DNA of 64,000 nt from Halalkalirubrum salinum (GTDB taxonomy: Archaea; Halobacteriota; Halobacteria; Halobacteriales; Haloferacaceae), in assembly GCF_005543295.1 (NCBI RefSeq), contig NZ_SRSG01000026.1, positions 1-64,000 of the forward strand, written 5' to 3'. Numbering within the stretch: the first letter of the stretch is position 1; each line of letters begins with the position of its first letter. Under the pieces are notes generated by a model. That model worked only from the letters and a program-made list of their open reading frames with translations, had not been told where the DNA came from and ran no database searches. The position numbers and the translations under genes are program-made. Positions 11,798 through 51,738 of the stretch are shown piece by piece.

Positions 11798-11836
11798 ACC
11801 ACAACGCACGCAGGGCGATCGTATAGTTATCCTCCC

Positions 11837-11924
11837 CACTATCACGGTCTGTGCTTCCCACTATCACGGTCTGTGCTTCCCACTATCACGGTCTGTGGCT
11901 CTCACTATCGCAATCTGTGTGGTC
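11837..11924. repeat. 22-bp tandem repeat array in a divergent promoter
   Basis: The unit CACTATCACGGTCTGTGCTT+CC occurs at 11837-11858 and 11859-11880 as perfect copies, at 11881-11902 with a changed end, and at 11903-11924 as a decayed copy. The array fills the space between the TATA boxes of the leftward amphi-Trp gene (near 11,825) and the rightward zinc-ribbon gene (near 11,944). The unit length equals two helical turns, so an activator or repressor binding array is possible. A slippage-born minisatellite is the alternative. Confidence 0.85.
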
Positions 11925-26532: not shown

Positions 26533-27611
26533 GCGCAGTCTACGAACCCGTCTCGGCGGACGCCCACCCAGCGTTGACCACCGAGGGGCGGACGCTCCTG
26601 TACGAGCTGGTGTCGACGCCGTCGGTTTCCGGTGCGGAAGCCGAAGCGGCCTCGCGGCTCGTGGAGTTCTTCGAGGCGCACGATCGGGAGGCGTTCACCG
26701 ACGCGGTCGGCAACGTCCACGCGCCGGGTGACGATACGGCCCTTTTGACCTCACACATCGACACGGTTCCCGGCGAGATCCCCGTCGAGATCAAAGACGG
26801 CGAGGCGGGGCCTGAGCTGTGGGGCAGAGGCAGCGTTGACGCGACGGGACCGCTCGCGGCGATGGCCGTTGCTGCTGTCGAGACTGGGGCGTCTTTCGTC
26901 GGTGTCGTCGGCGAGGAGACGAGCTCCCGGGGCGCGAGACACCTCGTCGAGACGCGCGAGGAACCTGAGGCGGTCATCAACGGCGAACCGTCCGGGTGGG
27001 ACGGGATTACCCTCGGGTACCGCGGCTTCCTCGCGGGAACGTACGTCGCGACGAGCGAGTCGGGCCACACCTCCCGGCCGGAGCCGAACGCAATCCAGCA
27101 CGCGATCGGGTGGTGGAACCGTGTCGAGGCCGTGTTCGATCCCGACGAGTGGCGCCCAACGTTCGAGCAGGTGACGACAAAACCCGTCGGCTTCGACGGC
27201 GGCGTCTCCGTTGACGGGCTGTCAATGGAGGCGACTGTCGACGTGCAGTTGCGGGTGCCGCCGAACCTGACGATCGACGAGGTCCGCGAACTCGCCGACG
27301 CCGAACTGGAAACCGGGACGGTCAACTGGAAAGAGCCGATCCCACCGGTGATGACAGACCCCCGAACGCCCTTGGCGCGGGCGTTCCGCGTCGCGATTCG
27401 TGCGACCGACGGTGACCCTCGGCTGCTCAGAAAAACCGGCACAAGCGATATGAACCTCTACGCGGCTGACTGGGACTGTCCGATGGTCACCTACGGGCCG
27501 GGCGACTCTTCCCTTGATCACGCCCCCGACGAGCATCTCCCGCTCGCGGACTTCGATCGAGCCGTCGACGTCCTGGTGTCGGTCTGTGAATCCATGGAGG
27601 TGGGCAAATGA
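26529..27611 (+). CDS. argE: ArgW-ornithine hydrolase (LysK/ArgE family)
   Basis: A 360-residue M20-family zinc peptidase that releases ornithine from ArgW, so the carrier can be reused. Metal-binding landmarks are LLTSHIDTVPGEI, GRGSVDATGPLAA, FVGVVGEETSSRGARH and RKTGTSDMNLYA, as in LysK. About 50 N-terminal residues precede the first metal ligand. It overlaps argD upstream and argF downstream by 4 bp. LysK homologues can also release lysine; in this operon ornithine is the expected product. Confidence 0.93.
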   Translation: MSAVYEPVSADAHPALTTEGRTLLYELVSTPSVSGAEAEAASRLVEFFEAHDREAFTDAVGNVHAPGDDTALLTSHIDTVPGEIPVEIKDGEAGPELWGRGSVDATGPLAAMAVAAVETGASFVGVVGEETSSRGARHLVETREEPEAVINGEPSGWDGITLGYRGFLAGTYVATSESGHTSRPEPNAIQHAIGWWNRVEAVFDPDEWRPTFEQVTTKPVGFDGGVSVDGLSMEATVDVQLRVPPNLTIDEVRELADAELETGTVNWKEPIPPVMTDPRTPLARAFRVAIRATDGDPRLLRKTGTSDMNLYAADWDCPMVTYGPGDSSLDHAPDEHLPLADFDRAVDVLVSVCESMEVGK

Positions 27612-28501
27612 GCCTCTCGATCGAGCACTTCCTCGACATCGACGATCTGAGCGCCGCGGAGCTTGAGACGGTCCTCGATCGGGCTGAAGCCATGAAATCC
27701 GGCGCAGACGACGCCCAACTCCCCCAACAGACGCTCGGGATGCTCTTCGAGAAGCCGAGCACCCGGACGCGGATCTCCTTCGAAACCGGGATGACGAAAC
27801 TCGGCGGGCACGCGATCTTCATGGGTCCAGAAGATATCCAGCTGGGTCACGGCGAACCGCTGAAAGACACCGCCAGAGCGGCCTCACGCTATGTTGACGG
27901 CATTATGGCCCGGCTGTTCGCCCACGAAGATATCGAGACGATCGCCGAGTACAGCGAGGTTCCCGTCATCAACGGCCTCACCGACGACGCCCACCCGTGT
28001 CAGACGCTCGCAGATCTGTTGACGATCCGCGAGCGCTTCGACGAGGACGTTTCGGTCGCGTGGGTCGGCGACGGCAACAACGTTGGCCAGTCGTTCGTCA
28101 TCGGCTGCGCGCTCGCCGGCATTGAGCTGACTGTCGCCACGCCGCCCGACTACGGGATGGACGACGACGTGCTCGATCGCGCCGCCGAGATCGGCAACCC
28201 ACCCGCGGTGACCACAGATCCAACCGAGGCGATCGAGGGTGTGGACGTCGTCTATACCGACGTGTGGGTCAGTATGGGACAGGAAGACCGACGCGAGGAG
28301 AAGCTGGCGGCGTTCGAGGGCTTTCAGCTGAACGAGACGCTGCTTGCGGGCAGCGACGCAAAGGTGATGCACTGTCTGCCCGCCCACCGCGGCGAGGAGA
28401 TCACCGACGCCGTCGTCGAGAGCGATCGGGCGATCGTCTGGGATCAGGCCGAAAACCGCCTGCACGCCCAGAACGCGCTGTTGGTCGAACTGCTCGGCTG
28501 A
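27608..28501 (+). CDS. argF: ornithine carbamoyltransferase
   Basis: A 297-residue transferase that makes citrulline from ornithine and carbamoyl phosphate, linking the carrier-bound branch to ArgG-ArgH. The carbamoyl-phosphate loop is EKPSTRTRISFE, the ornithine loop is HCLPAHRGEEI, and DDAHPCQTLADLLTI lies between. Length is typical. It is the last gene of the operon. Its last codons and stop are duplicated in tandem directly downstream (see the repeat at 28483). Confidence 0.97.
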   Translation: MSLSIEHFLDIDDLSAAELETVLDRAEAMKSGADDAQLPQQTLGMLFEKPSTRTRISFETGMTKLGGHAIFMGPEDIQLGHGEPLKDTARAASRYVDGIMARLFAHEDIETIAEYSEVPVINGLTDDAHPCQTLADLLTIRERFDEDVSVAWVGDGNNVGQSFVIGCALAGIELTVATPPDYGMDDDVLDRAAEIGNPPAVTTDPTEAIEGVDVVYTDVWVSMGQEDRREEKLAAFEGFQLNETLLAGSDAKVMHCLPAHRGEEITDAVVESDRAIVWDQAENRLHAQNALLVELLG

Positions 28502-28552
28502 TCTGGTCGAACTACTCGGCTGATCGTATTAGTCGAACAACTTGAGCGATCG
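28483..28552. repeat. tandem echo of the argF 3' end
   Basis: The 22-bp unit GGTCGAACTGCTCGGCTGAT+CT (28483-28504) contains the last argF codons and the TGA. It recurs at 28505-28526 with 2 changes and again, strongly decayed, at 28527-28552. Because 22 is not a multiple of three, the copies are not coding. The same kind of gene-end duplication occurs at 33,751 and 50,495. Confidence 0.8.
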
Positions 28553-33625: not shown

Positions 33626-33750
33626 TTAGGCTAGGATCTCCAGGGATGAAAAACCGATCAGGATGTCGCCGCGCCGTGGTCATCCGCGGATTGTGCGATC
33701 GTCGAACAGCGATCGGCTTTCGGCGACTATCTGCGACACATTTGCGCGAA

Positions 33751-33840
33751 CAGCGATCACTCATGCTGCATGCGTTCGAACAGCGATCACCCATGCTGCA
33801 TCCGCTCGAACAGCGATCGACGTCCGCGTTCGAGCCCGTA
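33751..33840. repeat. 30-bp tandem echo of the DUF2157 gene 3' end
   Basis: The unit (plus strand) CAGCGATCACTCATGCTGCA+10 bp at 33751-33780 and 33781-33810 differs at only 3 of 30 bases. A third, diverged copy lies at 33811-33840. The 33781 copy contains the last codons and stop of the leftward DUF2157 gene (FERMQHG-stop). The 33751 copy repeats this as FERMQHE-stop beyond the gene end. The period is 10 codons, so the frame is kept. Confidence 0.85.
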
Positions 33841-35136
33841 GCCGACCGCGAGTAACGTGGCACCTGCGACGACGAGCGCGATCGGCCCCGAGAGGCCGTC
33901 GATGACGGTTGACAGGAGGAACAGCCCAAGCTGTGCGACGAACGCAGCGATCGCCGCGTTGACGAGTGCCGTCGATCCCGCGGTGTAGCCCGCCCAGACT
34001 GAAAGCACCAACACGGCTAAACAGATTGCGTTGAGCACGAATACGAGCGGATCGCCGGCGAGCACCGCTGGTGGGGCTCCCGCCAATGCGATCGCGCCTG
34101 CGGCCGCGGCACCGCCGAAGGCCGGCCATGCGAGGCGATCGACCCACCGTGACTCTGCGGAATCTCGCCGGGTTGCAAGCGCAGAGAGCGCGAGAACGAT
34201 GGTCGCCCCAATCGCGATCGGGCCCCATACCCGAACCGGCTCGAACGGGGACGTTGTGGCTGCGAAGCCGTCGCTGATTGCCCACAAAAGCGGGATGACG
34301 ATCCCGAGGAGTCCGACGAACCGGTAGGCGTCGGCGACTCCCTCGTCGCTTGCACCCAGCGGCGCGGTAGCGATCGCCGCCAACAATGTGCCGTACGCCG
34401 CCACGGACACGAACGGTACCACCGGGGTTGACAGCGAAATCACGAGCGCTCCGACGACGGCCAACCCAAGTACTGTCGCCAGTCGTGACGCAATGAGATG
34501 CCCCGCAGGAACTGCGACGATCGCCCACGCCGCCAGCAGGACCCTGGGCTCGATTGCGAGATCGTACAGGTCAGTGAGCATGAAAAGCGCCAGTCCGACG
34601 AGGCCGCTACCAGCAGTCCACACCGCGGCTCCCGACCGGGGTGCCACGCGCGTCGACCACAGCTGCCAGCCGATTGCAAACGAGCCGATCGGTGCGACGA
34701 CCAACAGGGCCGCGCGGGCTGTCCGGGAAATTGTGGCCCAGTTGGCGGTGAGATAGACGACAATTCCTGCCGTCACGAGAACGGCGCCCATCAGCGAGAC
34801 GATCGCGACGAGCCGCGATCGTCCGTAGACGAGCTGATCATCAGTCGTTAATCGGTCCCTACCGGCCTGGCTGCCTGCGGCATCGCCATCTTCGGTCTCC
34901 GGTTCGGCCGGCTGCGATTCATACCGCGACCTGAGTATTTCGGCCTGCTTGTCAGTGACAAGGCCTTCGGTCTGCCAGCGATCGACCTCCCGAGCGAGCC
35001 ACGCCCACTGCCGGGGAGCGATCTCGATCGGCTCGAGTTCAGGCATCTCGACGTCTGAATCCGTTCCCCACAGCTCGGTCGGATCCGCCGTTGACACTGT
35101 CTCGTCCTCGTTGGATGGGTCGTCTGTGGGGGCCAT
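33787..35136 (-). CDS. DUF2157 multi-spanning membrane protein
   Basis: A 449-residue membrane protein. The cytoplasmic N-terminus contains the DUF2157 hallmark, a helix WLAREVDRWQTEGLVTDKQ that proposes an adaptor-like domain, and an acidic linker. About 12 hydrophobic segments follow from residue 110 to the end. Members are common in haloarchaea and bacteria; their transport or sensor role is not established. TATA-like TTTTTAGTAG lies about 27 bp before the ATG. The C-terminus ends in a basic helix (GYGLERGRRSLFERM) whose DNA is tandemly duplicated past the stop. Confidence 0.8.
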   Translation of the reverse strand: MAPTDDPSNEDETVSTADPTELWGTDSDVEMPELEPIEIAPRQWAWLAREVDRWQTEGLVTDKQAEILRSRYESQPAEPETEDGDAAGSQAGRDRLTTDDQLVYGRSRLVAIVSLMGAVLVTAGIVVYLTANWATISRTARAALLVVAPIGSFAIGWQLWSTRVAPRSGAAVWTAGSGLVGLALFMLTDLYDLAIEPRVLLAAWAIVAVPAGHLIASRLATVLGLAVVGALVISLSTPVVPFVSVAAYGTLLAAIATAPLGASDEGVADAYRFVGLLGIVIPLLWAISDGFAATTSPFEPVRVWGPIAIGATIVLALSALATRRDSAESRWVDRLAWPAFGGAAAAGAIALAGAPPAVLAGDPLVFVLNAICLAVLVLSVWAGYTAGSTALVNAAIAAFVAQLGLFLLSTVIDGLSGPIALVVAGATLLAVGYGLERGRRSLFERMQHG

Positions 35137-43123: not shown

Positions 43124-46100
43124 TTAGGGGCTATCGCGATCGTGCAGCCGTTTTGCCGCGAGTGCGCCGCCGCCGATCGCGGCCGCGCCCGCACCGAGTC
43201 CGAAGCCGGGAATGTTGTCCGCACCGTCGGCTTCGCCTTCGGGTGCCTCAGACTCGTTGTCCGACGCGTCTTCGCTGTTATCATCTTCACTGCTATCTTC
43301 GCTGCTGTCTTCGTCGGTGTCGTCATCCGCTCCGTCTGACTCCGTTTCCGATTCATCGTCACCGACGTCTGCGAGCAGATCCTCGCGGCTTAGATCGCCG
43401 ACCGTCACGAACGGGATCGCCGCCCGGGTGTCTTCGTCGTACTCCGACAGCACGTCTGTGCGATCGACACCGTCGGGCGTGACCATGTCCATGACTGCTG
43501 GATCGCGCCCGCCTTCGCGGCCGCCACCGATCGTGTGTTCCTCGGCCTCGGGACCGATCGGCCGGATCCCACCGTCGCCGAAGCCGTCGTAGGGCATTAC
43601 TGTTGGCGCGAGTGCAATCCCGGCCTCGCGGTCCCAGCCGATCGCCGCCCGTGGGAGGACGATCTGAACGGTCTCGCCGTCGGTTTCTGCTGACACGTCG
43701 TTCGTTACGCCGTTGCCCTCGGCGTCCTCGACGGCCATCGTCCCCTCCCCGTGGACGACCACGCGGTAGTGGTAGGGTACCTCCGTCTCGATGTTGGTTC
43801 CCGTCCGTCCGGTGGTCGATTCGGGGCCATCCGCGTCTGGATCGTGGACGTACACCTGGAAGAACGGGTGGCTAAAGCCCGGATCGAAGCCCCAGGGGTT
43901 CTCTGGGGGCTCCGCAAGCGTGAACTCGAAGGCCACGTCGTCGCGGGACGCCTCGATCGCAAACTCGTCGATATCCCAGGCGGCCTCGTAGTAGTCTTCG
44001 CCGGTCGGGACCTCGTAGGTTCCTGGACCGTACGGTTCGCCCGTCGGGACGTCGATCGTCGTTACTGACTCGAACGGGGTTTCAAGCGGTATGTACCCGA
44101 TCGCTGCGGGCGAGTCCGCGCTGTATGCGAGCGCGTCGGCGCGATCGACGGTGCTGTCGGTCACCAGATCGATCACGTTCGGATTCGCGTCGCCGTCCTC
44201 ACCGCCGCCGAACGTCGTCTCGGTCGCATCGGCAGCCACCTGCGCAATGTTGCCCGGCCTGTCGGGATCGTAGCCGAACAACACCGGAGCGACGCTGTAG
44301 GCCGACAGCGGGCGCTCGAAGGCGTTTTTTGGGAGGTTTGCGACGATCGCGCCGGTCACCTCGTTGACCTGGACGCGTCCCTCGGTTACCTCCTCTCCAT
44401 CGTGTTGTTCGAGCCGCGCGCCGCGATCGCCGTCGACGACCACCCGCAGCTGGTGCGGCTCGGTAAGGGCCGCGTTTGCGCCCTCTCGCATCGCGGTCGT
44501 GCCGCTGTCGGCCTCGGGGTCGCGGAGGTACACCTGCAGGTGCTGGACGGTGAAGCCTTCTGGGCGATCGCGGTGATTCGTCAGGTCGCCGTCGACGACC
44601 AACCGGAACTGGTAGGCCTCGGGCGTCTCATGGAGGGTGAACTCGTCGATGTCGAGTGCGCCTTCGGTGTACGCCTCGTCAGCGGGATAGACGTAGCCGC
44701 CTGGGCCGTCGTCGGTGCCGGTTTCGGGGTCGAACGCCGCGACGCGCGAGCCGATCTCGAGGAGATCGGGGGTTTCGAGAATCGCGATCGTGTCCACGGC
44801 GACCTCCGTTGCGTTCGAGACCGTTTCCTGGCTGATATCTGCGCCGGTGACGAGGTCGACGCCGTCGACGCTCGGGCGGAGAAACACTCCCGCTTCGCCC
44901 GGATCGGGATTGATCACGACGATGGCGCGATCGGGACCGTCCACGTCGTCGAGCCCGCTCGCGTCCCGGCCGAAGACGAGCGCGTCGCTCATACTGTTCG
45001 ACCACGCGCCCGAAAGCGCGGCCTCGGGTTTGAGTACGTCTAATTCGTGGTAGGTCTCGATCAGTTCCTGGTAGAACGCGAGGTGCTCCTCGTCGTATTC
45101 CTCCCAGTTCATGAACGCTCGTTGCATCCCGTCCGGCCGGACGTCGCCTTCCGTTCTGGGATCTTCGTCGCCCTGATGGCGATTCTCGCCGTACTCTGAA
45201 ACCGCTCGCTCTTGACCGTAGTAGACGAACGGGACGCCTGGCAGCGCCACGCCAGCGGCCCATACCGCCCGCTGAGCTTTACGTGGATCGCCACGCGTGC
45301 CGTCCATTGCCTCGTTGAGCGTCCGGTTCTCGTCGTGGTTTTCGATCGCGTTCAAAAACAGCGTGTGATCCGGAAAGCCCTCGTTTTGACGCTCCCGGAT
45401 CGCTTCGAAGAGGGCGTCGAGATCGGCCTCACCGCGGGCGATCTGGTGGGCCGGAACGGTGAATTCCTCGGTGTCGAAGTGTGCGTCGAACTCGTTTTCC
45501 GAGAACGCGCGATCGTTGGGGATCGCCTCGTCGAGCAGCATGAACTCGCTGTCGGCGGCGCGGACGACCTCGCGGAACTCCTTCCAGAAGCTGTGGGGGA
45601 CGCCCCACGCGATGTCACAGCGGAAGGCGTCGACGCCGATCTCGCCGGCCCAGAAGTCCGCGAACGCGAGCATGTACTCGCGGACGGCCACGTTGTCGAA
45701 GTTGAAGTTCGGGTGCAACTGCAGGTTCCAAAAGCCCGTTGCATGGGGAGCGACTTCGAGCGTCTCGCCGTCGTGTTCGAAGGGAACGTCGAGGCGATCG
45801 AACCAGTCGAAGTACGGCGACTCCTCGTCCCACGCCTCGACGATCGGCCAGAACTCCGGCTCGTCGGTCTGGTGTTCGATCGTGTCCTGAAACTTTGGCA
45901 GTGTCCGCCCACAGTGGTTGATGACGACGTCTAAACAGACCTTGATATCGTGGTCGTGGCAGGCGTCGACGAACGCCTCGTACGCCGCAAGCCCTTCCTC
46001 ACCCTCGGGAACGAGATCATCGGCAACGTCGAAGTAGTTGGTGATGTCGTAGCCGTGTGGGCCGCCGCCGGGGAACTCCCGCTCGGCGCTCACCGCGGGG

Positions 46101-47095
46101 TGGATCGGCGTGAGCCAGACGACGTCGATCCCGAGTTCGTCGAGGTAGTCGACGCCGCGGGCGATCTCGTCGCCCTCTGCGAGCGTCTGGAACGTCGTTT
46201 CGCCGCGACGACCCGCCCACGATCGCGTGAAGATCTGGTACATGACCGCGTCGTTCATCCACTCTGGCGGGCGGTTCGGCAGCTCAATTGCCCCGTCCGG
46301 CGAGAGCTCGATCGTGTCAACAACGCTGGATTGACTCCCGTCGTAGACGACCGCGTGGACGCGCGCACGCTCGTCGTTGAGTGCGTCGACGGGAACCGTT
46401 GCGGTCAGTCCGTCGACCTCGATCGCCTCGGTTTCGAGCGCGTCGCGGTCGTCAGCGACAAAAATCGCCTCCAGATCGGCGATCGATGTCCGGCTGTTCG
46501 GCGCGGTCTTCGCGTTCGTTTCGATCTCGAACGTCGAGCCCTCGACGGAGCCGGACAGCTCGATTCGCGGCGGACCGCCCTCGCTGTCGTCGACCTCGGG
46601 GAAGGCGTGGATCGTCCACTCATGGGTGCCGTCCGGGGCCTCGAGTTCGATCGTGTACCGTCCGGGGACGTCTGCCTCGAACTCGCCGACGTTGTCTCGG
46701 CCGGCGTCGTAGCGCGGCTGGTCGTCGAACAGCGAGGACGCGTACGTGATCTCGGCGTCGCTGCCGTCCGGGCGATCGACGATGCGCCACGAGAAATCTG
46801 CGGCGTCGTACCCCTCAGGATCGGCGCTCGGGTCTGGGATCCGGGGGGCGAGGTTATCGCGATCGCTGATGTACTCCGGGGAGACCCACGCCGGGTTCCA
46901 GAGCGTCTCGCCGACGTGGACGAACCGCGGCTCGCCGGGGTGGTGTGAGGCTGCACCCACGTCTGTGACCTGCCTGCGCGCGGCGAGCCGATCGGCGGCC
47001 GCGCCCGTCGGGGCCACAGAGAGCAGTCCAATTCCCGCGAGCCCGCCGAGGACGGCCCGCCGGCTCGCCGTCGGGGTGTGTGGTCGATCGCTCAT
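43124..47095 (-). CDS. exported GH13 alpha-amylase family protein
   Basis: A 1,323-residue protein. The Tat signal ASRRAVLGGLAGIG with a hydrophobic run starts it, so it folds before export. Next come beta-rich domains, then a GH13 (beta/alpha)8 barrel: GVDAFRCDIAW (nucleophile Asp, about residue 490), LLDEAIPND (acid/base Glu, about 522), IENHDENR (third Asp, about 585), and QIFTRSWAGRRG at the entrance. Two DOMON-like glucodextranase-type C-terminal domains follow (YVYPADEAYTEGALDIDEF and YEVPTGEDYYEAAWDIDEF), then an acidic linker and a PGF-CTERM-like tail (PGFGLGAGAAAIGGGALA). It likely degrades starch at the cell surface. ATG 47095 is chosen; the upstream open frame is a shadow. Confidence 0.88.
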   Translation of the reverse strand: MSDRPHTPTASRRAVLGGLAGIGLLSVAPTGAAADRLAARRQVTDVGAASHHPGEPRFVHVGETLWNPAWVSPEYISDRDNLAPRIPDPSADPEGYDAADFSWRIVDRPDGSDAEITYASSLFDDQPRYDAGRDNVGEFEADVPGRYTIELEAPDGTHEWTIHAFPEVDDSEGGPPRIELSGSVEGSTFEIETNAKTAPNSRTSIADLEAIFVADDRDALETEAIEVDGLTATVPVDALNDERARVHAVVYDGSQSSVVDTIELSPDGAIELPNRPPEWMNDAVMYQIFTRSWAGRRGETTFQTLAEGDEIARGVDYLDELGIDVVWLTPIHPAVSAEREFPGGGPHGYDITNYFDVADDLVPEGEEGLAAYEAFVDACHDHDIKVCLDVVINHCGRTLPKFQDTIEHQTDEPEFWPIVEAWDEESPYFDWFDRLDVPFEHDGETLEVAPHATGFWNLQLHPNFNFDNVAVREYMLAFADFWAGEIGVDAFRCDIAWGVPHSFWKEFREVVRAADSEFMLLDEAIPNDRAFSENEFDAHFDTEEFTVPAHQIARGEADLDALFEAIRERQNEGFPDHTLFLNAIENHDENRTLNEAMDGTRGDPRKAQRAVWAAGVALPGVPFVYYGQERAVSEYGENRHQGDEDPRTEGDVRPDGMQRAFMNWEEYDEEHLAFYQELIETYHELDVLKPEAALSGAWSNSMSDALVFGRDASGLDDVDGPDRAIVVINPDPGEAGVFLRPSVDGVDLVTGADISQETVSNATEVAVDTIAILETPDLLEIGSRVAAFDPETGTDDGPGGYVYPADEAYTEGALDIDEFTLHETPEAYQFRLVVDGDLTNHRDRPEGFTVQHLQVYLRDPEADSGTTAMREGANAALTEPHQLRVVVDGDRGARLEQHDGEEVTEGRVQVNEVTGAIVANLPKNAFERPLSAYSVAPVLFGYDPDRPGNIAQVAADATETTFGGGEDGDANPNVIDLVTDSTVDRADALAYSADSPAAIGYIPLETPFESVTTIDVPTGEPYGPGTYEVPTGEDYYEAAWDIDEFAIEASRDDVAFEFTLAEPPENPWGFDPGFSHPFFQVYVHDPDADGPESTTGRTGTNIETEVPYHYRVVVHGEGTMAVEDAEGNGVTNDVSAETDGETVQIVLPRAAIGWDREAGIALAPTVMPYDGFGDGGIRPIGPEAEEHTIGGGREGGRDPAVMDMVTPDGVDRTDVLSEYDEDTRAAIPFVTVGDLSREDLLADVGDDESETESDGADDDTDEDSSEDSSEDDNSEDASDNESEAPEGEADGADNIPGFGLGAGAAAIGGGALAAKRLHDRDSP

Positions 47096-47305
47096 GCCTT
47101 TCGGTGTACTGGGGGGCGGTTGTACATGCGTGACTCTGTCTCGTATGCAGTCAACGCGCCGAGTTAAATCTTTACGAAAAATCACCTCATACTTGTATAT
47201 CGAGTTGTTGGCAGGGCAGTTCGCGGCCTGGCGCGATCGAAGGAAACGCATTTGCCTGCGGAGCACTCGGCTTTGCGTGATGAGGATTGCCGCCGGTGAG
47301 AGCCG
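47096..47305. promoter_or_regulatory. divergent promoter region, amylase and helicase
   Basis: 210 bp between two divergent starts. AT-rich TTTAACTCGG (read leftward) near 47,165 and TCATACTTGTATATCG near 47,190 are the TATA-like elements. No repeat or dyad stands out, so nothing can be said about starch regulation. Confidence 0.35.
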
Positions 47306-49648
47306 ATGAAGGTTGCCGATGCGGTTCCAGAATTCGCCGACGCGTTCGGGTTTTCGGAGTTCAATCGAATGCAGCGCGAGGCGCTGTCTGCACTGCTCGA
47401 CAGCGACGCGAACGTCGTTGCGAGCGCACCAACTGGCTCCGGGAAGACGGCACTCGCTGAGCTCGCAATCTGTAAAACGCTCCAGGACGGCGGGACGGCA
47501 CTGTTTATCGCGCCGCTTCGGGCGCTCACAAACGAAAAAGAGGCTGATTGGGAGCGCTTTGAGTCGCTTGGATACTCGGTGTACGTCGTCACTGGCGAGC
47601 GCGATCTCAATCCCCGCCGGGCCGAACGGGCAGACATTCTCGTGATGACGCCTGAAAAGACCGACTCGGCGACCCGAAAGCACGACTCGCCGCGGTACTC
47701 GTTCATTACCGATATCGACTGCTGTGTTATTGACGAGGTTCACCTGCTGGACTCGGACGGCCGCGGCGGCGTGCTCGAAGTTACCGTCTCGCGGCTCCGG
47801 CGGCTCTGTGCTCCCCGAATTGTCGCGCTGTCGGCCACAATGCCTAACATCGATGATGTGGCCGCGTGGCTCGATGCGCCGCCCGACGCGGTCTTTGCGT
47901 TCGACGAGGACTACCGCCCGGTCGACTTGCACTCGGGCGTACAGACGTACACGCACGGACAGAACGCCTTCGTCGACAAGTACATCCGGCTCTCGAAGGC
48001 GATCGACCTCGCAGAGCCACACATCACCGACGGCGGGCAGGCGCTCGTGTTTGTCTCGTCGCGACAGGACACCGTTCGGGCGGCCCAGAAGGCTCGTGAC
48101 GAGATTGCCGAACGCGATATCCCAATGGGCGCTCGCGGCGACTACGATGTCCACACGGCCGCAAAGGAATTGGACAACGAGACGCTTCGGAAGTCGATCC
48201 CTGACGGCGTCGCGTTTCACCACGCGGGCCTGTCGAAGGGCGATCGCGACCAGGTCGAGGCGTGGTTCAAAGACGGCACTGTTCAGCTGTTGTTTTCGAC
48301 TTCTACGCTCGCGTGGGGCGTGAATCTCCCGGCGCGGTGTGTCGTCATCCGAGACACCAAACACCACGATCCGCTGGAGGGCGAGGTCGACATCAGCCCA
48401 CTCGACATCCTCCAGATGCTCGGGCGGGCTGGGCGGCCGGGCTACGACGACGTGGGCTACGGCTGGGTCGTGTGCGACCGTGGCGACGCCGACAAGTACC
48501 GCACGCTGCTCACCGACGGCACGGAGATCGAGTCGCGACTCGCGGCTGATCTCGACGCTCACCTGAACGCCGAGATCGCCATGGGGACGATCGCCGATCT
48601 CGAGGACGTGCTGTCGTGGCTCGAAACCACGTTCTACTACCAGCGAGCCCGCTCGAAGCCCGAAGAGTACGGTTTCGACGGCCTGCGCGATCGGGTCCGA
48701 TCCTCGCTCGAACGGCTCGTCGATCGCGGCTTCGTCGAGACCGACGACGACCTCGGCATTGACGCCACCGCGCTTGGCCGGCTCACCTCGAAGTACTACC
48801 TCGACCTCGATACCGCCTACGCGTTCCGACAGCTCGCCGATCGCGATCGGCTCACTGCCGACGACATTCTCGAGACGGTCGCTGCGAGCGCGGCCTTCGA
48901 CAGTGTCTCTGCCAGACAAGCCGAATCGGACGCGATCGGAAACGTCCTCCGGGGAGTCGACACTGACCTCGACGACGGCCACCGGAAGGTCCGTGCGATC
49001 TTGGAGGCGAGCATGGCCGATTCGATCCCGGGCGACCTCCGCAGTGACGCATGGATAATCCGCCAGAACGCCCTCCGGCTGCTCGCGGCGCTCGGGGAGT
49101 TTCTGGATCGCTTCTCGGGGCCGCGGGCGGCAAACCTCGCCTGCCGCGTCGAATCGCGAGTCGAAAACGGTGTCGCTGCTTCCGCGGTCGCGCTCACTGC
49201 GATCGACGGCGTCGGCGCGGGGCGTGCAGAGACGCTCGCGAACGCAGGGCTGACCTCGCCGGCAGACGTGCTCGCGGCCGGCCACCGCGAATTGACGAAC
49301 GCCGGATTCTCTGCCGGGGTCGCAACACGAGTCGTCGATGCTGCGGGTGAACTCCCACGGATCGAGGTCGACTGGGGGGTGCTGCCCGACGAGATCGCGA
49401 CCGGCGATAACAAACTGGTCGAGGCAACGATCGAAAACCACGGCGGTGCTGCCCGTGCCGGGATTCGCGTCACAGTCAACGGCGTCGAGATGAGCGAAAC
49501 CACGGCGTATCTCGCCGATCGGACGACGACGCCGATCGCGGCGTTTGGCTCGCCGGCGGCCGACGAACTCGAGTATACGATCGAGGTGACGTTTCCCGAT
49601 CTGCCGCTGTTGCCGGTGCAGGCCTCGCGGACGGTCCGCGTCGAGTGA
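47306..49648 (+). CDS. Ski2-like helicase with Sec63-type module
   Basis: A 780-residue superfamily 2 helicase. Walker A is APTGSGKT (41-48) and the DEVH box is CCVIDEVHLLD (about 140-149). SATMPNIDDVAAWL is motif III, and QMLGRAGRPGYDDVG is motif VI. After the helicase core come a winged helix and ratchet (about 430-560), a helical bundle, helix-hairpin-helix (ALTAIDGVGAGRAETLANAG) and a beta-sandwich of about 80 residues (VEATIENHGGAARAGIRVTV). That order matches the Sec63 module of Brr2/Mer3 and differs from classic Hel308, which ends after the helical domain. Substrate (DNA or RNA) is uncertain. It is followed 68 bp later by the zinc-ribbon gene. Confidence 0.85.
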   Translation: MKVADAVPEFADAFGFSEFNRMQREALSALLDSDANVVASAPTGSGKTALAELAICKTLQDGGTALFIAPLRALTNEKEADWERFESLGYSVYVVTGERDLNPRRAERADILVMTPEKTDSATRKHDSPRYSFITDIDCCVIDEVHLLDSDGRGGVLEVTVSRLRRLCAPRIVALSATMPNIDDVAAWLDAPPDAVFAFDEDYRPVDLHSGVQTYTHGQNAFVDKYIRLSKAIDLAEPHITDGGQALVFVSSRQDTVRAAQKARDEIAERDIPMGARGDYDVHTAAKELDNETLRKSIPDGVAFHHAGLSKGDRDQVEAWFKDGTVQLLFSTSTLAWGVNLPARCVVIRDTKHHDPLEGEVDISPLDILQMLGRAGRPGYDDVGYGWVVCDRGDADKYRTLLTDGTEIESRLAADLDAHLNAEIAMGTIADLEDVLSWLETTFYYQRARSKPEEYGFDGLRDRVRSSLERLVDRGFVETDDDLGIDATALGRLTSKYYLDLDTAYAFRQLADRDRLTADDILETVAASAAFDSVSARQAESDAIGNVLRGVDTDLDDGHRKVRAILEASMADSIPGDLRSDAWIIRQNALRLLAALGEFLDRFSGPRAANLACRVESRVENGVAASAVALTAIDGVGAGRAETLANAGLTSPADVLAAGHRELTNAGFSAGVATRVVDAAGELPRIEVDWGVLPDEIATGDNKLVEATIENHGGAARAGIRVTVNGVEMSETTAYLADRTTTPIAAFGSPAADELEYTIEVTFPDLPLLPVQASRTVRVE

Positions 49649-49716
49649 AAAGTAGGCGTACTTTACTGGCCCTGGTCGCCGGAGATTTACGTACGATCGC
49701 GAGGCCACCCCGCTGT

Positions 49717-50511
49717 ATGTCCGAGACTGTTCGGCTGTTCACCGGCGACTGCACGACGAAATTCGACGGGACGCGGAGCCAGACCCAACGCGGCACGGTC
49801 GTGATCGTGGTCAAGCCCGATCGCACCGTACTCGTCCACGACGCTGACGGCTACCAGCCCGTCGCGTGGCTGACCCGTCCCGACGAACTCACGATTGAGG
49901 AGGACGACGCCGGGTTTTCGATCGTCGCACAGGCAGGCGAGCAGACGCTACGAGTTGTCTCTAATGCAAAGGGCCGTGCGTGGTCTGCGCCGATCGGGGC
50001 GGCCGGCACGCCGATCGGGACCTGTCCGGACTGCTCGGGACCGCTCGTGCGGATTCGCGGTGACGTACGGTGTCTCGACTGCGAGGACCGCTACGGCCTC
50101 CCCTCGGGTGCGGCCATCCTCGACGATACCTGTGAGGCGTGTGGACTACCGAAAATGGCCGTCGAGCGCGGGGAGCGATTCGAACTTTGTGTCGACTACG
50201 CGTGTGAGGGTCTCGCCGATGCCGTCCGCGATCGTTTCGAGGGCGAGTGGGACTGTCCAGATTGTGGCTCGCCGCTGTCGGTGAAAAGCCCAGACGGACG
50301 AATCTTTCTCGGCTGTTCGGCGTATCCGGACTGCGAGACGACGTTTTCGATCCCTTCGGGTACGATCTCAGGAGCCTGTGCTTGTGGGCTCCCCGTGTTC
50401 GACACCCCCGCGGGCGAGCGCTGTCTCGACGGGACCTGTGACCACGGATCGCACGCTACTGACGGCGGTCGACCGTTTTGGCCGTCCGGCGATCGATCGT
50501 CTGCATTGTGA
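49717..50511 (+). CDS. NucS-like N-domain fused to zinc ribbons
   Basis: A 264-residue protein. The N-terminal about 90 residues (GTVVIVVKPDRTVLVHDADG, then QPVAWLTRPDEL) resemble the N-terminal dimerisation/DNA-binding domain of NucS/EndoMS (DUF91). The nuclease domain is absent. Instead there are three to four zinc ribbons: CPDCSGPLVRIRGDVRCLDC, CEACGLPKMAVERG...LCVDYAC, CPDCGSPLSVKSPDG with GCSAYPDC (a topoisomerase I-type C4 ribbon), and CACGLPVFD...CLDGTC. It probably binds nucleic acid; catalysis is not expected. ATG 49717 is used because the NucS-like start follows it. Its 3' end is tandemly duplicated past the stop. Confidence 0.75.
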   Translation: MSETVRLFTGDCTTKFDGTRSQTQRGTVVIVVKPDRTVLVHDADGYQPVAWLTRPDELTIEEDDAGFSIVAQAGEQTLRVVSNAKGRAWSAPIGAAGTPIGTCPDCSGPLVRIRGDVRCLDCEDRYGLPSGAAILDDTCEACGLPKMAVERGERFELCVDYACEGLADAVRDRFEGEWDCPDCGSPLSVKSPDGRIFLGCSAYPDCETTFSIPSGTISGACACGLPVFDTPAGERCLDGTCDHGSHATDGGRPFWPSGDRSSAL

Positions 50512-50572
50512 GTTAGCGGCGATCGTCTGCATTGTGAGTTAGCGGCGATCGTCTGCATTGTGAGTTAGCAGC
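50495..50572. repeat. 26-bp tandem echo of a gene 3' end
   Basis: The unit GATCGTCTGCATTGTGAGTT+AGCGGC is present three times in succession: 50495-50520, 50521-50546 (identical) and 50547-50572 (one change). Two decayed copies follow to about 50,625. The first unit spans the stop codon (TGA at 50509-50511) of the zinc-ribbon gene, so the gene end has been copied three or more times. Confidence 0.9.
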
Positions 50573-50664
50573 GATCGTCCACGCTCTGGGTTGGTGGTGC
50601 TCATCGACGCTATGAGTTGCGGACGATCGGTGCGTCTTTGTCTGCCCAGAACCCCCCTCGGTAC

Positions 50665-51738
50665 ATGGACGGAACCCTCCGCGAGGACGCCGTCGAACTC
50701 GGCGGCAACGCGAAACAGCGGTTCTACGACGCCCGCGGCTACGGCCGACCAGCCGGCGGCGATCGCATCGAACTCACGGCCGTCGAGGCCGCCCACCTGC
50801 TGTTCCGGGGCGACCTCGACGCGGTTGTCGTCGATGGCGATCGCCTCGACTTCGAGCCGTTTTTCATCCACACAGCCGGGGAGACGACCGCGTTCACGAA
50901 GCGCTTTCTCGTCTACTCGGACCTGCGCGATCGCGGTTTTTACCTCTCACCGGCACGGAAGGGCTGGCCTGGTGCGGACGCTCTCGACGAGACGTCTCCG
51001 ATCGACTTCACGGTCTACCCACGCGGCAGCGGGCCCGGCGACGGGTCGGTTGCACACCGGATCTCGGTCCACGGCGAGCGTGAGCGGATCCCAGCCGCCG
51101 GGCTGGCTGGCCGGACGCTTGCGATCGTCGACGAAGAAAGCGAGATCACCTACTTCGAGCTGACGCGCCCGTCGTTCGAGGGGGCCTCGATGTACGAACC
51201 ACCAGAGCCGATCGAGGCCGAACTCATCGGCGATCGGGTTGTCTGCTGGGATCCACCTGACGCAGTCCACGAACGGGGATTCTACGGCCAGCCGCTCTCG
51301 GGACGAGCGGCGATCGTCGAGGGAGCGATCCAGCTGTCATTGGTCGAGGCTGCGGGACTTGCGGCGATCGATCGACTCTCTGTGGCTGGTGAGTCTGATC
51401 CGTACGCGGCGATCGTTGAACGCGGCCGGGCAGTTGAGGGCGAGCGGTTCGATCGCCGGCTCGCAGTGTACGAACACCTTCGCGCACAGGACGTAGTTCC
51501 CAAAACGGGATTCAAATTCGGCGCGGATTTCCGGACGTACGACGCGGTCGAGACGGTCTCGGAGCTGCCACACTCAGAGCGGCTGGTTCGGGTCGTTCCG
51601 CCGGATCACGTTTTCGATCCTAGGGAGCTGTCACTCGACGTCCGACTTGCCGGCGGGGTCCGGAAACGAATGGTTTTTGCGTTGACCGACGCGACAGGAC
51701 AGATAACGTGGCTTTCGGCGAGCCGCTTGACACCATGA
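50665..51738 (+). CDS. endA: tRNA splicing endonuclease
   Basis: A 357-residue homodimeric-type (fused two-repeat) splicing endonuclease that cuts bulge-helix-bulge motifs in archaeal pre-tRNA. The active C-terminal repeat has Tyr in FRTYDAV, His in PHSERLVRVV and Lys in GVRKRMVFALTD. VYEHLRAQDVVPKTGFKFG is the family signature, and the N-terminal repeat keeps only a degenerate copy (VYSDLRDRGFYLSPARKG). ATG 50665 starts directly after the repeat array. The gene overlaps trpS by 4 bp, notable because tRNA-Trp is the best-known intron-containing tRNA of haloarchaea. Confidence 0.93.
   Translation: MDGTLREDAVELGGNAKQRFYDARGYGRPAGGDRIELTAVEAAHLLFRGDLDAVVVDGDRLDFEPFFIHTAGETTAFTKRFLVYSDLRDRGFYLSPARKGWPGADALDETSPIDFTVYPRGSGPGDGSVAHRISVHGERERIPAAGLAGRTLAIVDEESEITYFELTRPSFEGASMYEPPEPIEAELIGDRVVCWDPPDAVHERGFYGQPLSGRAAIVEGAIQLSLVEAAGLAAIDRLSVAGESDPYAAIVERGRAVEGERFDRRLAVYEHLRAQDVVPKTGFKFGADFRTYDAVETVSELPHSERLVRVVPPDHVFDPRELSLDVRLAGGVRKRMVFALTDATGQITWLSASRLTP

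Follow-up and report, generated by a model that had tools for sequence, protein, structure and literature searches.

The tandem repeats that run across gene ends in the haloarchaeon Halalkalirubrum salinum are most probably copy-number-variable minisatellites (VNTRs), which differ from lineage to lineage and are apparently neutral where they cross a stop codon. They are of a kind already known, ordinary minisatellites, and they sit over stops mainly because selection tolerates them there. The analysis started from a window of H. salinum DNA (the whole stretch analysed, 64 kb) and compared the genus through two genomes, those of H. salinum (G000) and its sister species 'Halophilic archaeon SHRA6' (G001).

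The array closest to endA lies at the end of a gene on the forward strand (49717..50511, TGA at 50509-50511) whose product carries zinc ribbons (Pfam Zn_ribbon_Top1, Auto_anti-p27) and a PH-like domain of the NucS_N type. This gene is without a recognised nuclease domain, has a variable C-terminal tail, and is kept 5' of endA in many haloarchaea, including most of the haloarchaeal loci examined. The downstream gene is endA itself (50665..51738, forward strand; tRNA-splicing endonuclease, Pfam tRNA_int_endo and tRNA_int_endo_N). Tandem Repeats Finder (TRF) placed a 26-bp array of 3.3 copies with a 98% match at 50494..50579 on the same strand, with the unit CGATCGTCTGCATTGTGAGTTAGCGG, and near-perfect copies are found at 50494-50519, 50520-50545 and 50546-50571, the last with one change. 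The first copy holds the last codons and the TGA of the NucS_N/zinc-ribbon gene. Sequence comparison added a decayed fourth copy (50572-50597) and then the remnant of a fifth (about 50598-50629). TRF and the sequence thus agree with the preliminary description of this locus, in which a 26-bp unit containing the stop occurs in at least three copies. With head-to-tail units within the range of about 10-100 bp and high identity, the array is a minisatellite by the usual definition. A DNA search of the genome with the 26-bp unit matched at the endA array only.

At the endA locus SHRA6 is 94-95% identical to H. salinum and carries the same array at the same site in about 12 copies (12.3), as against 3.3, with both numbers taken, like all array copy numbers here, from public assemblies. 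The array is therefore not a chance match, and the difference between the sister species identifies it as a copy-number-variable minisatellite. The decayed fourth copy is common to both species, and the remnant of the fifth is missing in SHRA6. The protein ends in SSAL* in H. salinum and in SSIS* in SHRA6, which means that protein tails can join a repeat and be rewritten. Most orthologous array pairs of the two genomes differ in copy number, or have an array in one species and about one copy in the other, as with GACGATCGGTGAGTGAGTTTCTCT, present five times in SHRA6 and once in H. salinum. A direct search for recent tandem duplications in 212 kb of alignment between the two genomes turned up just 9, a number too small to support a test.

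Three of the four non-coding minisatellites in the window span a stop. Besides the endA-proximal array, these are a 22-bp array of 2.0 copies (28482..28525, forward strand) over the stop (28499-28501) of argF (27608-28501, forward strand), with a decayed third copy reaching about 28556, and a 30-bp array of 2.4 copies (33747..33818, reverse strand) that contains the 3' end and stop (33787-33789) of a gene with a Pfam DUF2157 domain (33787-35136, reverse strand). The architecture first noted at these two genes was confirmed in both. The counter-example is a 22-bp array of 3.4 copies at 11835..11919, between two divergent gene starts, which spans no stop. In SHRA6, the argF orthologue has an array with a period of 26 and 2.5 copies, and the DUF2157 array has an equal copy number with its variants shuffled. 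Elsewhere in the window, a 2194-codon open frame (43124-49708, reverse strand) extends from the true glycosidase gene across the antisense of a helicase gene (47306-49648), and naive gene callers fuse the two.

The endA-proximal array was born in this lineage, as shown by its relatives. Natronocalculus, the nearest other genus (75% protein identity), has the same gene pair with a short spacer and no repeat. Repeats at the orthologous gene end were absent in most of the 39 haloarchaeal loci with the gene, and those in two of them are unrelated: a 16-bp repeat directly after the stop in Halegenticoccus soli and a 32-bp repeat starting inside or at the gene end in Halopenitus persicus. Unrelated arrays have thus arisen at this position in other lineages.

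The array trait as a whole is patchy over the haloarchaea. Good-quality non-coding arrays occur at about 0.33 per kb of intergenic DNA in H. salinum and 0.31 in SHRA6, and at about 0.06 in two other haloarchaeal genomes; the 400 kb of sequence examined from Natronocalculus held none (p = 5e-6). The densities in Halorubrum sp. 48-1-W (0.94) and Halopenitus persicus (0.43) are biased upward, since these genomes were chosen for their array-rich endA loci. Stop-spanning arrays outnumbered start-spanning ones in both (8:0 and 11:2, respectively).

The preference for stops was quantified in 784 kb of H. salinum (window included) and 800 kb of SHRA6, together 1.58 Mb and about 23% of each genome, in which genes were called with a purpose-built codon-usage model and TRF was run for periods of 15-60 at a score of at least 50. 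About half of the non-coding arrays in this sample span stop codons: 47 span a stop and one spans a start (p = 3e-13). The stop preference relative to the intergenic share was present in each genome, with 18 stop-spanning and no start-spanning arrays in H. salinum, where random intergenic placement expects 5.3 ± 2.0 stop-spanning ones, and 29 and one in SHRA6, where it expects 7.9 ± 2.6. The combined count is about 3.5 times that of random placement; the outcome that would have refuted the preliminary description, no preference for stops over their share of intergenic DNA, was thus not seen. Per available position, arrays were densest over the stop itself (1.8 per kb) and sparser just beyond it (0.7 per kb), a contrast that counts against a reading by tolerance alone. 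Starts exclude arrays: the distance profile was empty between -27 and 0 bp, which is what a bar on arrays in promoters and leaders would produce.

The periods of the arrays are independent of the reading frame outside genes. Inside genes, 93 of the 96 periods were divisible by 3 (93:0:3 by remainder), as against 43:33:31 for non-coding arrays and 16:16:15 for the stop-spanning subset, indicating that genes retain only frame-neutral events and that a unit crossing a stop may have any period. Consensus units differ in sequence between loci, and together with the search of the genome this rejects a shared unit family of the kind formed by dispersed repeats such as MIRUs. Growth outward from the gene end was likewise rejected: in 19 stop-spanning arrays the gene-proximal copies had 31 mismatches and the distal ones 14, and in the endA-proximal array of SHRA6 it is likewise the copy at the gene end that diverges. 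The decay toward endA that had been described in H. salinum is real at 50572-50629 and is not a general feature of these arrays.

Duplications with the observed periods and copy numbers were then simulated in collapsed intervals and called under identical TRF settings. The only places closed to them were coding interiors and a promoter zone of 30 or 60 bp, and the maximal interval was 200 or 400 bp. Across all settings the simulations gave 20-29 stop-spanning arrays, compared with 32-45 observed; before shared arrays were removed, the figures were 21-29 and 36-45. As two constraints yield most of the stop-spanning count, tolerance explains most of the pattern: exclusion from coding DNA and promoters accounts for the larger part of the stop excess. 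The leftover excess was 1.2- to 2-fold in both samples and significant in three of four settings once shared arrays were removed. At the strictest setting (60-bp promoter zone, intervals of at most 200 bp, orthologues removed) there were 32 arrays against 26.5 expected (p = 0.13). Removing the five shared arrays gave 36 against 25.1 (p = 0.006) in another setting, and 36 against 21.6 (p = 3e-4) and 40 against 19.6 (p = 1e-6) with intervals of at most 400 bp. The settings were picked one after another, and these p-values are a range rather than a single test. The size of the leftover excess depends on what fraction of the longer intergenic stretches is truly free.

For minisatellites under such constraints, local single-copy DNA would be tandemly duplicated, with replication slippage or short-homology recombination as the probable cause, and the resulting arrays would expand, contract and be homogenised. 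They would persist where harmless, that is outside coding frames and core promoters. Within a gene, a duplication would shift the frame; close to a start, it would disturb the promoter. A unit that runs from the last codons through the stop would do no harm, since the end of the protein is retained in the first copy and later copies fall in the 3' flank.

A sequence feature that may assist duplication is the palindrome CGATCG, close copies of which may serve as short homologies. It occurs at 5.2-5.4 per kb in H. salinum and SHRA6, about 16 times the expectation from base composition, and was found in 37 of 105 array units as against 11.8 expected from position-matched controls, roughly a 3-fold enrichment. 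One orthologue pair (G001 s1:354940) fits this picture, its single-copy state being flanked by CGATCGCT on both ends. Elsewhere CGATCG is in 14-18-fold excess in Natronocalculus and in 3-8-fold excess in many Halorubrum, while several other haloarchaea have no more of it than expected, or less. It is thus a patchily distributed iterated palindrome of the type of HIP1 (GCGATCGC) in cyanobacteria, where CGATCG and GATC methyltransferases have been linked to such palindromes (PMC4390886). Our literature search found no haloarchaeal report of a CGATCG-type iterated palindrome. CGATCG was rejected as a sufficient cause, as it is 14.5-fold in excess in Natronocalculus, yet the 400 kb sampled there hold no good non-coding array. 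Separately, CTAG is strongly under-represented in the H. salinum and SHRA6 sample (316 occurrences against about 2850 expected from composition).

Among the other explanations, the one that fares best is that duplication is focused on transcript 3' ends, through R-loops, collisions at convergent genes or pausing at terminators; we consider it unlikely. The excess over simulations with intervals of up to 400 bp speaks for it, as do the convergent intervals of H. salinum, which carry 16 of the 38 placed arrays in 16% of the intergenic bases. That excess nevertheless vanishes at the strictest setting, unannotated promoters and small or missed genes in long intervals would mimic the pattern, and the share of arrays that span stops is lower in two other array-rich haloarchaea (8/28 in Halorubrum sp. 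48-1-W; 11/51 in Halopenitus persicus, or 11/53 including edge cases). The mechanism at transcript ends proposed in the preliminary description is therefore possible and not required, as simulated duplications without it already give most of the arrays. Its more specific form, in which the last codons and stop are copied outward in this genus by a CGATCG-aided process tied to transcript 3' ends or convergent transcription, seems slightly less likely again.

It is more doubtful still, to the point of being improbable, that the repeats have a function in the 3' UTR, as terminators, RNA stabilisers or protein-binding sites. Measured against shuffled sequences, the first two units of stop-spanning arrays do fold a little more stably (mean z of -0.86, compared with -0.29 for control 3' ends), but local structure arises in any tandemly repeated DNA, and at p = 0.057 the signal is at most marginal. 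T-runs (TTTT) are present in just 2 of the 47 stop-spanning arrays. RNA 3'-end structure and repeat-mediated termination, both raised at the outset, are not clearly supported. The enrichment of the CGATCG palindrome in array units speaks for a function, but the motif is equally common in stop-spanning (17/47) and other intergenic arrays (20/56). Moreover, the unit differs at every locus, most haloarchaea lack the repeat at the end of the orthologous gene, and copy number varies freely between the sister species. Backup stop codons, by which the extra copies would supply further stops on readthrough and which had also been suggested, are scarcely credible: the 30-bp period at the DUF2157 gene does bring TGA back in frame in copy 2, but selection would favour periods divisible by 3, and the 16:16:15 split contradicts this, as do the periods of 26, 22 and 30 in the window, which fall in all three modulo-3 classes.

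Minisatellites in compact genomes thus appear to be sieved by selection, being kept across stops and not in frames or at starts. Such arrays would be good strain-typing markers, and the leftover stop excess, if real, would be a sign that duplication in archaea can be linked to transcription. In their non-coding tandem units of 15-60 bp, their variable copy number among relatives and their in-frame periods within genes, they resemble bacterial minisatellites and VNTR loci, from which they differ in that about half of the non-coding arrays span stops and the units are enriched in CGATCG. Mycobacterial interspersed repetitive units (MIRUs) are likewise tandem units between genes with a variable copy number, and the end of a unit may lie over the stop codon of the preceding gene. 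MIRUs are all related sequences, about 50-100 bp long, of a single dispersed family, whereas each locus here has its own unrelated unit. In Haloquadratum walsbyi, indels have been reported between direct repeats 4-20 bp long, and most of them delete a core that is not itself repeated (PMC3119063); such short direct repeats are a plausible engine for array contraction, while tandem expansion is not described in the part of that study drawn on here. The marine Beggiatoaceae have tandem intergenic direct repeats of TAACTGA, some of which (13 sets) extend over the stop codon of the gene before them (PMC4679880). Those repeats share one heptamer and lie mostly just 5' of starts, whereas the haloarchaeal units are long, unrelated to one another and start-avoiding.
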